From Synechococcus sp. BIOS-U3-1 (GTDB taxonomy: Bacteria > Cyanobacteriota > Cyanobacteriia > PCC-6307 > Cyanobiaceae), in assembly GCF_014279975.1 (NCBI RefSeq), contig NZ_CP047936.1, positions 372,001-436,000 on the forward strand: a stretch of 64,000 nucleotides of DNA, read 5' to 3'. Position 1 is the first letter of the stretch; every line of letters starts with the position of its first letter. Positions 15,709 to 46,056 of the stretch are shown here, piece by piece. The notes below the pieces were generated by a model. The model ran no database searches. It saw nothing but the letters and a program-made list of their open reading frames with translations, and was not told the origin of the DNA. A program made the translations under genes and the position numbers.

Positions 15709-16320
15709 GTGTCCGATCTCACAACACGCACCCTGGTGTGGCTGACTTATCGCCTAGGGGCGACGATCGCTCTCGGAATTCCGCTTGTGCTTCTGATTTG
15801 GTCGGTGTTGCGACGTGACCCCGCTTTGGTCAGGTTGCTAGGGATTTACTGGAAAGTGGCGAGTCTGCTTGCCATCAGCGTGTTGCTGCTGACTGATCAA
15901 AGGCCGATCGGCTATCTGACGGCTTTTCTCGCACCTCTCCTGATGGCGGCCTCTCTGTGGTTCTGGGTTGACCTCAATGAGGAGCTGGCTGATAGCCCTC
16001 CGGGTCGTGCGCTGCCGTTCACAGTGCGGGTCTGGCGATGGGCTCTCACGCTGTTCGCTCTGTTTGCTGCCGTCATGTCCGGTTCTGCACTGGGCTGCAC
16101 CCGTCAGCTTGGGACCGATGCATGTCGGGTGTGGCTGGAGGCCCCCCAGGGGCTGCATCGAGTCGCTGAATCGGTATTCGACTTTGTATTCGGCGGTGAG
16201 TGGACCATGGCCGTGGCGGCCTTCATCGGATATGTAGCGCTGGTGGCTTACGGCGTGGGTCTGCTGCAGTGGGCTCTTGTTCGTCTTCCCAAACAGGGAA
16301 GGGTCGCTGGGGATTTCTGA
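15709..16320 (+). CDS. DUF3177-like integral membrane protein
   Basis: A 203-residue protein with about five hydrophobic segments (near residues 16-35, 45-62, 68-88, 105-128 and 160-190). LLTDQRPIGYLTAFLAPLLMAASLWFWVDL reads like the DUF3177 family of cyanobacteria, recognised from memory. The start is GTG. Divergent from the FIST gene by about 70 bases; the next gene begins 2 bases after its stop, so the two form a unit. Function unknown. Confidence 0.65.
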   Translation: MSDLTTRTLVWLTYRLGATIALGIPLVLLIWSVLRRDPALVRLLGIYWKVASLLAISVLLLTDQRPIGYLTAFLAPLLMAASLWFWVDLNEELADSPPGRALPFTVRVWRWALTLFALFAAVMSGSALGCTRQLGTDACRVWLEAPQGLHRVAESVFDFVFGGEWTMAVAAFIGYVALVAYGVGLLQWALVRLPKQGRVAGDF

Positions 16321-16322
16321 TC

Positions 16323-16619
16323 ATGGAGTCCATCGTTCTGGTTCAAGAGCTGGAAGAACGCACGCGTCTGAGTCCTGATCGGGTGGTGAGATTGCACGGG
16401 TTTGTCCTGGATGAGCCATTTGAACTCTTGATCTTTCGTGGCTTCAGCAGCAGTACGACGCATCCAACAGCCTTCGATCCAGATACCTCGGTGCTCCCCG
16501 AGGGCATCCGTCTGGATTGGGCGGAACTGCTTCAGGGTCCATTGAACGCATCTCAGGAGATTGTGCTGGCAGGTCCCATGCAGCCTGATGGATTGTTGAG
16601 TCCGTCGCACTGGGTGTGA
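16323..16619 (+). CDS. Conserved-looking 98-residue protein
   Basis: From the ATG at 16323, immediately after the DUF3177 stop. The frame is open further upstream only because it runs out of phase through that gene. The protein begins MESIVLVQELEERTRLSPDR and contains LHGFVLDEPFELLIFRGFSS, a soluble mixed alpha/beta pattern that I associate with small cyanobacterial and plastid proteins of unknown function. No catalytic residues are evident. Convergent with the tyrosinase-like gene, 31 bases away. Confidence 0.6.
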   Translation: MESIVLVQELEERTRLSPDRVVRLHGFVLDEPFELLIFRGFSSSTTHPTAFDPDTSVLPEGIRLDWAELLQGPLNASQEIVLAGPMQPDGLLSPSHWV

Positions 16620-16650
16620 TACGAGCGGGCGGATGGAAGTTGAGTTGCGA

Positions 16651-19218
16651 TCAAACTGCCGCCACGGAGGGCTCCGCTGAGCTGAAGTTAAAGCTGATCA
16701 AGAGGTCGTCATAATCGGCATCTCCGCCTCCAAAAATATCTTCCAATCCCAATAGATTTTTACCGAGTTGGTAGAAATGGCTGATGCCGTCTTTATTGGC
16801 GTCGGCAAATCCGAAAAATGTTTGTCCATTGACGATTGCATATGGTGCTAGATAGCCAGTCTCGCCATTGAAGGTGGCGGTTTTGATCGAAGCTTCGTCT
16901 GAGTCAGTCGTCAGACCAGTCAATGAATCGAAAATATTGTTATCTCGCAGGGCTTCTTTCGCATAGTCCTCATCACCTGGAGACAGCAGTCTGCCGTTTT
17001 TCGCTTCGACGGTTCCGGTCAAGTCAAGAACGCTGAAGAACCCAACAGTGGGTGCATAGTCTGCATCGCGACCAATGACGATGTCAGCTGTCATTGACTC
17101 ATCCGAGCCCAGAGCGCTGAAATTAAATACGGGTGAGTTGGCATTGCTGTCGAGCCAGTTTTTTGCTGACAATTCTTGTGCGTCGCCCAGTGCAAGTCCA
17201 GCTCTCTGGCCGAAATCCAAATAGTTGGTAATGGCTTCATATGGTGATGCGCTGATGCCGTCGTTAATCAATTCCGGATTGGTTGTGAGATAACGCATTC
17301 CCACGGCTGCGGCCCTGAAGTTCACAAACGGCGTGATCTCGCCTGTTGTGCGGTTCGTATTGAAAAATGCTTCTGGGTCACTAAGCGCCACTGAGTCGGA
17401 GAGGAGATTTGGGTTGCCGGCGAGATAGGCCGCGTCGTCGAATGTGCCGCCGTTGGAATTGATTGTTTTGAGGTTTTGATTGATCGTGGTAGTGAGTTGA
17501 CTTAACGTTAAGTCATTTGCTGTAGAGCTAATAATAATTCCTGGTTGTTCGCCTCCATAAGTAGATAAATAGTTGTTGAGTTGCTCCCTGGCCGCGCCGC
17601 CCCTCTCGGTTAATTTCTGATTGATAGCTGCTGCGATATCAAAAGAGATGCTTGCGTCCATGCGCATTTCCGATCCCCCTCCCATTGGGAATGAGCTGAT
17701 GGTTAAGGAGGGTAGGAAGTCGAATTGATCTATTTTCTCCTGACTCGTGAGTTGGCTGATCTGCTCGGCTCCGCCAATAATAATCTTGATTGGTGCTGAG
17801 CTATTCATTTTAATCTTGTAATCCAGGTCGATTTCGATGGATATTGGGTTGATTTTTTTTGTAGTATCTGAAAGGTCTCGAATCTGATCAATGCTCAGTG
17901 GCAGGTTTGTTGTGATCGCTTGAGTGAGTAATTTGTTGTCTTCCAGGGTTGTCAGCGAAATGTTGTTGAGGTTTTTTTGGCTTGCTATTGGGCGGTATGA
18001 GGGTAATTCCAGTAAAAGGGTGGCTGGATTGGGACCTTTTTCTGTGAATTCATCCAGTTGGTCGTAGGTGTAGTTGGGGCTGTAAAGACTGCTCAGAACT
18101 CTGGTTGGATCGGCTCCCCATTGTGAAAAAGTTGTTGAGTCTTCACTTCCACTTGATGACGGCGCAAAAAATTGATAATTCCAGGGATTATTGGTTAATT
18201 CGCTTGTGCTCAAGTAGCTTGCTTTATCAGAAAAATTCCAGTCACTTAGCAGTTTATCAATATAGGAGTGATGGATCCAAAAGATTGGATCAAAGGCAGC
18301 ACCTTCGACGTTATACATAAGCCCAAATGGGAATCCACTCGCATCGGAAGCGCCTAAGGCTTTGGCGGTGTCTTGCAGGGCCAGATTGACATCGTCGTTG
18401 CTGATCGATTCCTGGCCGGATGGCGAGGCCAGGGCTGAGTTCTCGAAAAAGTTGTCATAGGCGCCTCCTAGCGCAACGTGCATCGTGCCATGTGGATTTG
18501 CATTTAAGAGTTCATTGAAGCTTTTAAAGCTAGTTTGTGCTTGTGCAGTATTCAGACCTGTTTGGATGGAATCAAGAACCGTAATTCCTTCACGAATCAG
18601 GATGTTGCTGAGGCTGATTCCTTCATTGATCAGTACGCTGCGACTGGCTTCATGGAGAGGGGATAAGGTGTCGCGAAATGGTTCGGGAATGATGTCTTCC
18701 CCCTGCTTGGTGTACTCCCAGTAGGGAAGTGCCCATGTGTCAGCTCCCTGGATTCCTGCGGCTTGCAGGACTGTGCGTGCAACTTCTTCAAAGCTTTGAA
18801 GATAAAGACGATGCCAGCTTAAAAAATTAATCCCAGAATCATCCTGCCTTGAGATAACAGCTGGTGAGGTGTTCCCATCATCTTGGCCCCATAAATCCCT
18901 AAAGTGAGTGCAATTCATCAGGGCTGTGTTTCCTAGCAGCACGTCGTCTGCGCTTTCGACATAACCATTGGTTGCCGCCCAGGTCGCAAGAGATTGTCTG
19001 TCTGGTTCAAAAGTCCCGTGAATTCCGGCCTGATAATTCCAGCCCAGAGGGTCGCCTGCGTTGTCTGCTGACCGTTGCTTCATCAGCCCAACGGCTGTTT
19101 CGTAAAGCTTGAGGGCTTGTTGTCCTGCTTCTGTCTTGACGTTATGGCGAACGAAACTGGTGTCAAAGGTCTCCATGCTGGCTTCGGAGAATCGTTCCGC
19201 CAGCTGACTGAAAGACAT
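16651..19218 (-). CDS. Tyrosinase/polyphenol oxidase-like copper protein fused to a DUF4114 domain
   Basis: An 855-residue protein. Residues 60-330 form a type-3 copper domain. CuA candidates are His67 (NYQAGIHG), His105 in NCTHF (the Cys103-x-His105 pair resembles the thioether pair of fungal and bacterial tyrosinases) and His136 in FLSWHRLYLQSFE. CuB candidates are His243 and His247 (NPHGTMHVALGG) and the HH pair at 316-317 in DPIFWIHHSYIDKLLSDW. Residues 350-580 are unassigned and beta-rich. Residues 590-700 contain two segments like the AxYLAxNPxL...A..YxxFG repeat of cyanobacterial surface proteins. The end, LGLEDIFGGGDADYDDLLIS, is a DUF4114 signature. No signal peptide is visible. The gene is clearly AT-rich against its neighbours and stands alone, suggesting acquisition. 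Oxidation of phenols is the family role; the substrate is unknown. Confidence 0.85.
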   Translation of the reverse strand: MSFSQLAERFSEASMETFDTSFVRHNVKTEAGQQALKLYETAVGLMKQRSADNAGDPLGWNYQAGIHGTFEPDRQSLATWAATNGYVESADDVLLGNTALMNCTHFRDLWGQDDGNTSPAVISRQDDSGINFLSWHRLYLQSFEEVARTVLQAAGIQGADTWALPYWEYTKQGEDIIPEPFRDTLSPLHEASRSVLINEGISLSNILIREGITVLDSIQTGLNTAQAQTSFKSFNELLNANPHGTMHVALGGAYDNFFENSALASPSGQESISNDDVNLALQDTAKALGASDASGFPFGLMYNVEGAAFDPIFWIHHSYIDKLLSDWNFSDKASYLSTSELTNNPWNYQFFAPSSSGSEDSTTFSQWGADPTRVLSSLYSPNYTYDQLDEFTEKGPNPATLLLELPSYRPIASQKNLNNISLTTLEDNKLLTQAITTNLPLSIDQIRDLSDTTKKINPISIEIDLDYKIKMNSSAPIKIIIGGAEQISQLTSQEKIDQFDFLPSLTISSFPMGGGSEMRMDASISFDIAAAINQKLTERGGAAREQLNNYLSTYGGEQPGIIISSTANDLTLSQLTTTINQNLKTINSNGGTFDDAAYLAGNPNLLSDSVALSDPEAFFNTNRTTGEITPFVNFRAAAVGMRYLTTNPELINDGISASPYEAITNYLDFGQRAGLALGDAQELSAKNWLDSNANSPVFNFSALGSDESMTADIVIGRDADYAPTVGFFSVLDLTGTVEAKNGRLLSPGDEDYAKEALRDNNIFDSLTGLTTDSDEASIKTATFNGETGYLAPYAIVNGQTFFGFADANKDGISHFYQLGKNLLGLEDIFGGGDADYDDLLISFNFSSAEPSVAAV

Positions 19219-19377
19219 TGTGGAATTATCTGATTTCCCTATCTAGCAGTCGTTTCTTGTGCTGTGAACCTGTTTAAACATGAATTGTTTTCCTTTTTGT
19301 TTTGGTGCCTGCGTAGTTATCGATCAGAGGGTTGATATTGCATTGGTTTGCATTAGCAATTTGATGCTTCTGAGGTC
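19219..19377. other. AT-rich intergenic region upstream of the tyrosinase-like gene
   Basis: 159 bases between the tyrosinase-like start and the ileS stop. It is T-rich and probably contains the promoter of the tyrosinase-like gene, but I see no clear -35/-10 pair or operator. No gene, RNA or repeat is supported. Confidence 0.4.
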
Positions 19378-22287
19378 TCAGATCCTGGCCAGAACGCCGA
19401 TGCAGCGCCCACAGAGTGCTGGATGCTGGCTGTGCTGCCCGATATCACCCTCGTAATGCCAGCAGCGTTCGCACTTGATTCCACGGGCTCTGCTGACCTC
19501 GATGATCGCGGTGTCGTCCGTCTGGGTGGCCAGGAGTTCGGCCCAGGGCTCTCCCCCTAATTGCAGCTGGGACACCAACAGCCAGTCACGCAGACCATCC
19601 GCTTCCGTGTCTCCGTTCTCGTTCAACCAGTAGAGAGCCGCTTGCAGTTCGGGATTTCGGGTTTCGATCCTTACCGCTGCTTCAAGCGATGCCCCGAGTT
19701 CCTGTTGGCTTCGGCACTCCTCCAGAACTTTGTTCACAGCAGCACGTAATTCGCGCAACCTCTGAATCGGTTCGCTGAGGGTCGGATCGCGCCAGTCGGT
19801 CGGAACGTTCGGCCAGCCGCGGTTGAAAATTGATCTTTCCTCCACCGCGTAGGGGAGGTTTTGCCAGATGTCTTCCGCCATGTGGCAAAGCACCGGAGCG
19901 ATCATTCCTGCCAGGCGTTCGATGATCAGCGACATCACGGTTTGGCAGCTTCGCCGTCGGCGGTCTGCGGGAGCGCTCACATAGAGCCTGTCCTTAGCGA
20001 TGTCGAGATAAAAGTTCGACAGGTCGGTCACGCAGAAGTTCTGCAGTAACTGGAAGAAGCGGAAGAACTCGTAGCTCTCGAAGGCTGCTGTGATCTCATC
20101 CATCACCTCTGCAGTGCGCTGGAGCATCCAGCGGTCCAGCAACGGCAGCTCCGCCACAGGAACGGCGTCGTCGGTTGGGTTGAAGTCGTGGAGGTTGCCC
20201 AGCAGGTAGCGGCTGGTGTTGCGCACCTTGCGGTAGACATCGGCGAGCTGGCGAAGGATGCCAGAACCGATCGGCACATCAGCGGAGTAGTCAACCGAGC
20301 TCACCCATAGGCGCAGCACATCAGCGCCGTAGGCAGGCTCCTGCTTCTGGTTCTTGCCGCCCTCGATGATCACCATCGGGTCGACAACGTTGCCCAATGA
20401 TTTGCTCATCTTGCGACCTTTCTCATCCAGGGCGAAACCGTGGGTGAGTACTCGCTGGTACGGGGCATGACCATTCACGGCAACCGACGTGAGCAGTGAG
20501 CTCTGGAACCAGCCGCGATGTTGGTCGGAGCCCTCCAGGTACAGATCGGCGGGATAGCTAAGGCCCTCTTTCTGGCTGGACACTGCGGCCCAGCTGGAGC
20601 CGGAGTCGAACCACACATCCATGGTGTCGCTGCCTTTGCGCCACTGCTCAGCCTGATCGGCATAGGCGGGCGGTAGTAGATCAGCTTCGTCCTTTTCCCA
20701 CCACACATCGGCGCCGTGTTCGGCGATCAGCGCTTCGATATGCGCGAGCGTGTCGGCGTTGAGCAGTACGTCGCCTCCACTGCGGTTGTAGAAGACGGGG
20801 ATCGGCACACCCCAGGTTCGCTGACGTGAGATGCACCAGTCACCCCGTTCCTTCACCATCGCTTCGATACGGTTTCGACCTGAAGCTGGAGTCCACTCGA
20901 CTTGATCGATGGCATCGAGGGCCTGCTGGCGGAAGCCGTCGACGGAGGCGAACCACTGTTCGGTTGCACGGAAGATCGTGGGCTTTTTCGTGCGCCAGTC
21001 ATAGGGGTAGCGGTGTCCGTAGGCCTCCTGCTTCAGCAGTGCCCCTGCCGTCTCGAGTGCTTCGATGATGACTGGGTTGGCGTCCTTCAGGACGTTGAGA
21101 CCGGCGAAGGGGCCCGCCTCCTGGGTGAGCGTGCCGGCTTCGTCGACAGGACACAGAACAGGCAGGCCGTTTTTCTGGCCTGTATAAAAGTCGTCGACTC
21201 CATGGCCTGGGGCCGTGTGCACCAAGCCTGTGCCTGATTCAGTGGTGATGTAGTCACCGCCGATCACAACGGGGCTTGTGCGGTCCAGTAAGGGATGGCG
21301 GTATGTCAGTCCAGCGAGCAGCGATCCCTTCACCGTGGCTTTGCGGACGAGTGGTCGTTCGAGCGTTCTGGCAAGGGAGTCGATGAGGTCGGCGGCAACC
21401 ACAAGCAGCCGCCCCTGGCCATCGTCGACGAGGGCATACTCCAGGCGTTCATTGACGGAGACCGCCAGGTTGGCCGGAATCGTCCAGGGGGTTGTGGTCC
21501 AGATCGCCACCTGAAGTGTCTTCCCGAGTGCGTCGGAATTACTTGGCAATGCGATGCCCTCTGTGCTGAGGGCGTCGCGCAGCAGCGCAGGTACTTCAAC
21601 CGCAGGGAAGGCGACGTAAATGCTGGGGCTGGTGTGGCCATCGGGGTACTCGAGCTCTGCCTCCGCTAGTGCTGTCTGCGAGCTGGGGCTCCAATGAACC
21701 GGTTTGAGACCTCTATAGATGTGCCCTTTAAGCACCATCTCGCCGAAGACCTTGATCTGGGCCGCTTCGTAGGTCTTCTGAAGGGTGAGGTAAGGCTCTT
21801 GCCAGTCGGCCCAGATGCCCCAGCGCTGAAACCCTTTCATCTGGCTGTCCACCTGCTTGCGGGCGTAGGCAGCGGCTTTTTTGCGCAGTTTGATCGGGGT
21901 GAGCGTTTGGCGCTGATCCTGATCCATCGACTGCAGCACTTTCAGTTCGATCGGCAGGCCATGGCAGTCCCAGCCAGGGATATAACGAACCTTGCGTCCT
22001 CGCAGGATCTGATATTTGTTGATCACATCCTTGAGAACCTTGTTCAAGGCATGGCCCATATGCAGGGGGCCATTGGCGTAGGGCGGACCGTCGTGCAGTG
22101 TGAAGATCGGACCTGAATTGTCCAGGCCCAGCTTCAGGTCAATTCCGTTGTCGGCCCAGAAAGACTGCAGCTCTGGTTCCCGCTGTACGGCATTCGCGCG
22201 CATCCCGAAGCTGGTCTGCAGCAGGTTGAGCGTGTCCTTGTAGGAGGGACGTCCTTCGGCGTTGGCGTCGCGCGTCTCCTTGCTCAC
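19378..22287 (-). CDS. ileS: Isoleucyl-tRNA synthetase
   Basis: Charges tRNA-Ile with isoleucine. The 969-residue class I enzyme has the HIGH-type motif as HMGH at residues 76-79 ([17 protein letters not shown]), the editing-domain segment [16 protein letters not shown], the KMSKS loop ([14 protein letters not shown]) and a C-terminal zinc finger ([12 protein letters not shown] and CGRC). Length and order fit bacterial type 1 IleRS. It is transcribed towards the tyrosinase-like gene; a Ycf66-like gene lies 22 bases upstream on the same strand. Confidence 0.97.
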
Positions 22288-45992: not shown

Positions 45993-46056
45993 GAGAACGG
46001 GAAAGAATGTCTCCGAAGAGACGGTTACGGAAGGGCAGGAAGCCCTGCCAAGCCGG

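Follow-up and report, generated by a model that had tools for sequence, protein, structure and literature searches.

Known copper oxidases with a C-terminal domain

Copper enzymes of the tyrosinase and polyphenol oxidase (PPO) kin cause the browning of fruit. Latent plant PPOs, including apple MdPPO1, tomato PPO, and aurone synthase, have a tyrosinase-type core fold followed by a C-terminal beta domain. Bacterial tyrosinases from Ralstonia (7xio), Hahella (HcTyr1, 8b74), and Burkholderia (BtTYR) resemble the protein described here in core and copper ligands. The 482-aa tyrosinase of Verrucomicrobium spinosum has a Tat signal peptide, a C-x-H motif, and a C-terminal latency domain, with neither a caddie protein nor a surface tail; the two positions that bear on activity are occupied by Glu and Asn (PMC10526336). 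The C-x-H motif, situated at the second ligand of the first copper (HisA2), is described in enzymes of fungi and Verrucomicrobium but not in the plant ones (PMC10526336).

We analysed a window of 64,000 nucleotides from the genome of Synechococcus sp. BIOS-U3-1. Its positions 16651..19218 (minus strand, as are all features below unless stated otherwise) encode an 855-aa protein that comprises, by ORF and Pfam analysis and modelling, a type-3 copper oxidase, a predicted latency-type domain, NPxL repeats, and a DUF4114 domain. The core fold and, in a low-confidence model, the kind of C-terminal beta domain are those of the latent plant PPOs, whereas the long loop between HisA2 and HisA3, the C-x-H motif, the repeats, DUF4114, and the lack of a transit peptide set the protein apart. 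Bacterial tyrosinases with a C-terminal domain differ from it in their HisA2–HisA3 spacing, which is nine in the ordinary forms tested, and in their ordinary C-domain (PF25271), which Pfam finds in the G554 enzyme but not here. In contrast to the Verrucomicrobium enzyme, the window protein has Asn239 and Gly244 at the activity positions, 855 aa, no signal peptide, and a DUF4114 tail. The original prediction, made from the sequence, knew of no such architecture in a picocyanobacterium; it is indeed rare but not unique, as homologues with all four parts including DUF4114 (37–38% identity) are encoded in Synechococcus sp. AG-679-A04 (G017) and in G023, two further Synechococcus-type members of the genus.

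We hold, with belief and doubt about evenly balanced, that the gene was acquired horizontally and encodes an intact type-3 copper phenol oxidase on the latent-PPO plan, whose tail keeps it at the surface after export without a signal peptide.

The copper site and the long CuA loop

The ORF begins with an ATG, and its stop-to-stop frame of 863 aa could add at most eight N-terminal residues. Because the frame spans no more than this, no N-terminal signal peptide has been overlooked, and its absence, part of the original prediction, is confirmed. The gene is the sole tyrosinase gene of the genome (one contig, 2.71 Mb). Pfam places PF00264 (Tyrosinase) at residues 128–328 (E-value 1.4e-22; 81.6 bits against a curated cut-off of 22.6) and PF13448 (DUF4114) at residues 793–845 (3.7e-6; 28.2 bits against a cut-off of 27), with no match above cut-off between them; both profiles had been named in advance as the ones the protein should hit.

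The core (residues 20–390; 18049..19161) was predicted as a tyrosinase fold, and modelling bears this out. In a first AlphaFold model, built from 15 alignment rows that included ordinary C-domains, the core helices are well defined with high pLDDT and the remainder is weak, the HisA2–HisA3 loop being of low confidence. The top structural matches of the model in VIA are tyrosinases and PPOs (Z 22–25), Hahella 8b74 is the best for the whole model, and latent plant enzymes align over model residues 13–579.

In sequence order, the predicted ligands of CuA are His67 (HisA1, 19018..19020), His105 (HisA2), and His136 (HisA3, 18811..18813), and those of CuB are His243 (HisB1), His247 (HisB2, 18478..18480), and His317 (HisB3). 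These six, together with His316 and Cys103, are invariant in alignments with four picocyanobacterial relatives and 14 more distant sequences. All the candidate positions listed from the sequence were thus exact, except that only His317 of the HH pair (18268..18273) is a ligand; His316 is a conserved, non-ligating seventh His. The motif Cys103-Thr104-His105 (18904..18912) also lies exactly where it had been placed. It permits a thioether bond but does not prove one, since in Hahella HcTyr1 a comparable Cys and His are not bonded (PMC11609597).

The insertion of about 22 extra residues noted in the CuA region is real: HisA2 and HisA3 are separated by 31 positions in the window protein and by 25–33 in six relatives, as opposed to nine in all 13 ordinary tyrosinases. 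Judged from the sequences, this loop (residues 106–131; 18826..18903) is the hallmark of a small clade made up of sporadic genes in picocyanobacteria, a planctomycete metagenome-assembled genome (MAG), and one more distant cyanobacterium. In a midpoint-rooted tree, the seven long-loop rows, the G403 enzyme included, are joined with support of 93/94; the subgroup of six that excludes G403 has 90/100, and the window protein groups with two other enzymes of its genus (93/90). The places of G403 and of the planctomycete form are unsure because their branches are long. The planctomycete form is 26% identical and lies behind an FN3 domain, and its contig neighbours are planctomycete-like.

Tyrosinase genes occur in three of 31 congeners and in six of 400 family members, and in a sample of 386 cyanobacteria strong matches to a protein of this type came only from the genome of the window and from G354. 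Phenol oxidases receive hardly any discussion for marine picocyanobacteria: among the papers listed by a text search for the two subjects together, none appeared to deal with such an enzyme. The long-loop branch is small and little noticed, and a few genomes of the genus share the four-part architecture.

Activity class

Published work assigns roles to two positions near CuB. Related enzymes lost activity when the water-keeper Glu, which precedes HisB1 by four residues, was changed (PMC10526336), and Asn or Asp directly after HisB1 favours monophenol hydroxylation without being required for it (PMC7693034). The water-keeper Glu is kept in 17 of 20 compared proteins; the exceptions are the window protein (Asn239), the G403 enzyme (Asn), and one G354 paralogue (Gln). 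The position after HisB1 is Gly244 in the window protein, where its four closest relatives have Asn, and the DUF4114-tailed enzymes of G017 and G023 retain both residues. The stretch from Asn239 to His243-Gly244 (18487..18504) therefore lacks the combination associated with monophenolase activity, namely the water-keeper Glu plus Asn or Asp after HisB1. Given Asn239 and Gly244 and the published roles of both positions, mainly diphenolase (catechol-oxidase) activity is the likelier one: the dinuclear copper core would oxidise o-diphenols to quinones and act on monophenols weakly if at all. Pfam, fold, and ligands uphold the assignment to the tyrosinase family, but as the name of an activity "tyrosinase" may be wrong here. 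Relatives that differ at the two positions form a natural test set for tyrosinase versus catechol oxidase.

A full tyrosinase, which would also hydroxylate tyrosine-type monophenols and yield melanin-like or dopamine-derived material, is somewhat unlikely. The four nearest relatives have the HisB1+1 Asn and most of them the water-keeper Glu, and certain enzymes without this Asn still use monophenols (PMC7693034); against it stand Asn239 and Gly244 in the window copy itself, as related enzymes became inactive once the Glu was replaced (PMC10526336). The neighbourhood of one G354 paralogue also speaks for it: directly downstream lies a low-GC tyrosine decarboxylase gene with EF-hands (L024 11901-14267), whose C-terminal family occurs in three of 400 genomes. 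This adjacency is a thin hint that the family uses tyrosine-derived substrates. The other G354 paralogue is followed directly by two low-GC cupin-like genes (L023 6779-8087). A pathway of amine oxidase, SDR, and ThDP enzymes with the G023 tyrosinase was considered and dropped, as the same genes are adjacent without a tyrosinase in relatives.

The repeats, the DUF4114 tail, and possible export

Two NPxL-type repeat units (residues 593–677; 17188..17442) follow the beta domain and are conserved in all five aligned members. Their proposed likeness to repeats of cyanobacterial surface proteins was not confirmed: they match no Pfam model and no other protein of the Synechococcus sp. BIOS-U3-1 genome. 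The DUF4114 domain with its GGGDADYDD motif (residues 793–845; 16684..16842) is, as predicted, the C-terminal end. We found DUF4114 in four proteins of this genome, always at the extreme C-terminus; the other three are otherwise unrelated to the window protein, and their remaining parts have no Pfam match. One DUF4114 gene, of low GC (0.41; L118 6297-7970), encodes no signal peptide and no other Pfam domain. A search of PDB sequences gave no convincing match to DUF4114. Exopolysaccharide binding has been suggested for Myxococcus xanthus PilY1 proteins with DUF4114 (PMC13190605). The tail is dispensable for the family as a whole, since DUF4114 is missing from two G354 paralogues and from the planctomycete form. 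Another enzyme-like protein with this tail is encoded close to the G023 tyrosinase gene (L022 14020-16797); it is of the DUF1254/DUF1214 kind, and its C-terminal DUF4114 match is weak.

We infer a plausible, type I-like export of the window protein from four facts: there is no signal peptide, DUF4114 is C-terminal in three unrelated proteins, the genome encodes a type I exporter, and chitinases of marine Synechococcus are exported and found extracellularly without a signal peptide (PMC4949707). The exporter, an HlyD and ABC transporter pair whose HlyD match is under the curated cut-off, adjoins two RTX genes. It is located elsewhere in the genome, and Pfam finds no RTX match in the window protein. 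The two RTX-type genes (L116 3489-4772 and 5017-6300) encode identical first 90 residues, and the ABC exporter next to them has a cNMP-binding domain.

That the protein is instead a cytosolic phenol oxidase, with nothing exported and a tail that serves assembly or stability only, seems unlikely. It would agree with the missing signal peptide and with the G023 relative, whose gene overlaps the downstream SDR gene by four bases. This SDR neighbourhood is, however, an insertion site whose flanking genes are adjacent in relatives, and the DUF4114 ends and the low-GC, exoprotein-like company of these genes also argue against a cytosolic enzyme. Under the preferred reading of a surface-held oxidase, the protein would leave the cell without a signal peptide, most likely through a type I system, and the repeats and DUF4114 would then hold it on the surface or within the glycan layer. 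Quinones formed at this site could cross-link surface components or deter grazers and competitors. If the enzyme is active at the surface, common marine phototrophs could make extracellular quinones, with consequences for copper demand, grazing, and organic matter.

A single-gene insertion between ileS and a DUF7734 gene

The tyrosinase gene occupies a segment (16620..19377) that extends from the stop of a DUF7734 gene (16200..16619, plus strand) to the stop of the convergent ileS (19378..22287), both genes being identified by Pfam. The two flanks are at most about 40 bp apart in 24 of the 26 congeners with an ileS match; the exceptions are G023, where the gap is about 500 bp, and G001, which has a different low-GC insert of 1.7 kb (L123 5843-7540, GC about 0.40). 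As the insert in G001 is a different one, the convergent pair may be a repeated landing site. GC content is 0.481 in the tyrosinase gene compared with 0.584 (sd 0.021) in the other 44 mechanical ORFs of at least 200 aa in the window, and its GC3 is the lowest among those compared. The genes of four relatives are likewise well under the mean GC of their own neighbours. The insertion site in G023 differs from that of the window gene: there, the tyrosinase gene lies between amine-oxidase and SDR genes whose spacing in three relatives is about 14 bp. These two independent empty sites mean that the gene was inserted singly at least twice. The locus is thus a clean, recent insertion of one foreign-looking, probably horizontally acquired gene, and the two empty sites illustrate the exchange of individual exoprotein-like genes in compact genomes.

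The insertion in G023 has GTTGGCAT on either edge (L022, near 8755 and 11328), which is a short repeat or a case of microhomology; some 10 bp that the empty site contains are absent. No long direct repeat is seen in the flanks of the window insertion, and a promoter scan of the inserted segment gave matches at chance level. A scan of genome contigs with the window protein alone returned no match, and the tyrosinases matched on plasmids stay below 60% identity and align with less than half of the window protein. Phage-borne origin was considered and is unsupported: two viral scans, which are most sensitive to close relatives, and a phage collection were empty.

Just as unlikely as a cytosolic enzyme is a recently gained gene on its way to being lost, whose altered water-keeper would stem from relaxed constraint and whose product would have little effect. 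Presence in only three of 31 congeners and the replacement of two activity residues would fit this, and most recent gains of picocyanobacteria are not retained (PMC7522525). Yet the 855-aa frame is intact with all ligands kept, and the distant G403 enzyme shares the Asn and has Gly after HisB1 as well. Constraint is strong between two relatives, the G017 and G023 genes (dN 0.17, dS 1.27, dN/dS about 0.13).

The C-terminal beta domain and the Met loop

The original prediction had left the beta-rich region between core and repeats unassigned. Because the first alignment held ordinary C-domains, we refolded residues 383–591 from family rows only, which gave a low-confidence model (pLDDT 55) with a beta domain at residues 455–582 (17473..17856). 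The best Foldseek hit of this model is the C-terminal domain of apple PPO (6elt/6elv, E about 0.006–0.009), and the best VIA match is the C-domain of the Ralstonia tyrosinase (7xio_B 345–497, Z 8.3), followed by tomato PPO (7.3). The region is therefore probably no orphan, its modelled fold being closest to the C-terminal latency domain of PPOs. The evidence for this identity is good but not final, as other jelly rolls score almost as high. In sequence, the domain is far from the usual bacterial type, and its profile does not match profiles of ordinary C-domains, so the link to latency domains is one of fold. In the surface-held latent oxidase that we favour, the domain would cover the copper site.

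The densest Met cluster sits in the same part of the C-domain in all six members, e.g., MGTTMSSNGMTMDQGMNHGSMPGA. Clusters as dense as those of five members arise in at most 17 of 2,000 shuffles, whereas the loop of the window protein (PMGGGSEMRM, residues 511–520; 17659..17688) is weak, with three Met left, which is chance level for one protein. For the family, we hypothesise that this Met-rich loop may aid copper loading. A broader version, in which a mobile branch of surface-held copper oxidases spans marine picocyanobacteria and planctomycetes, uses the Met-rich loop in place of a caddie protein, and coats or cross-links the surface with quinones, appears distinctly improbable.

A hemocyanin-type oxygen carrier or sensor without catalysis is very improbable indeed: hemocyanins are among the top PDB sequence matches, but their scores are summed over many repeats of a single chain, and the structure matches favour PPOs, which is not decisive as hemocyanins also have beta domains. 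Elsewhere in the window, a PhotoRC-I RNA motif (Rfam RF01716) lies at 46009-46050 on the minus strand.
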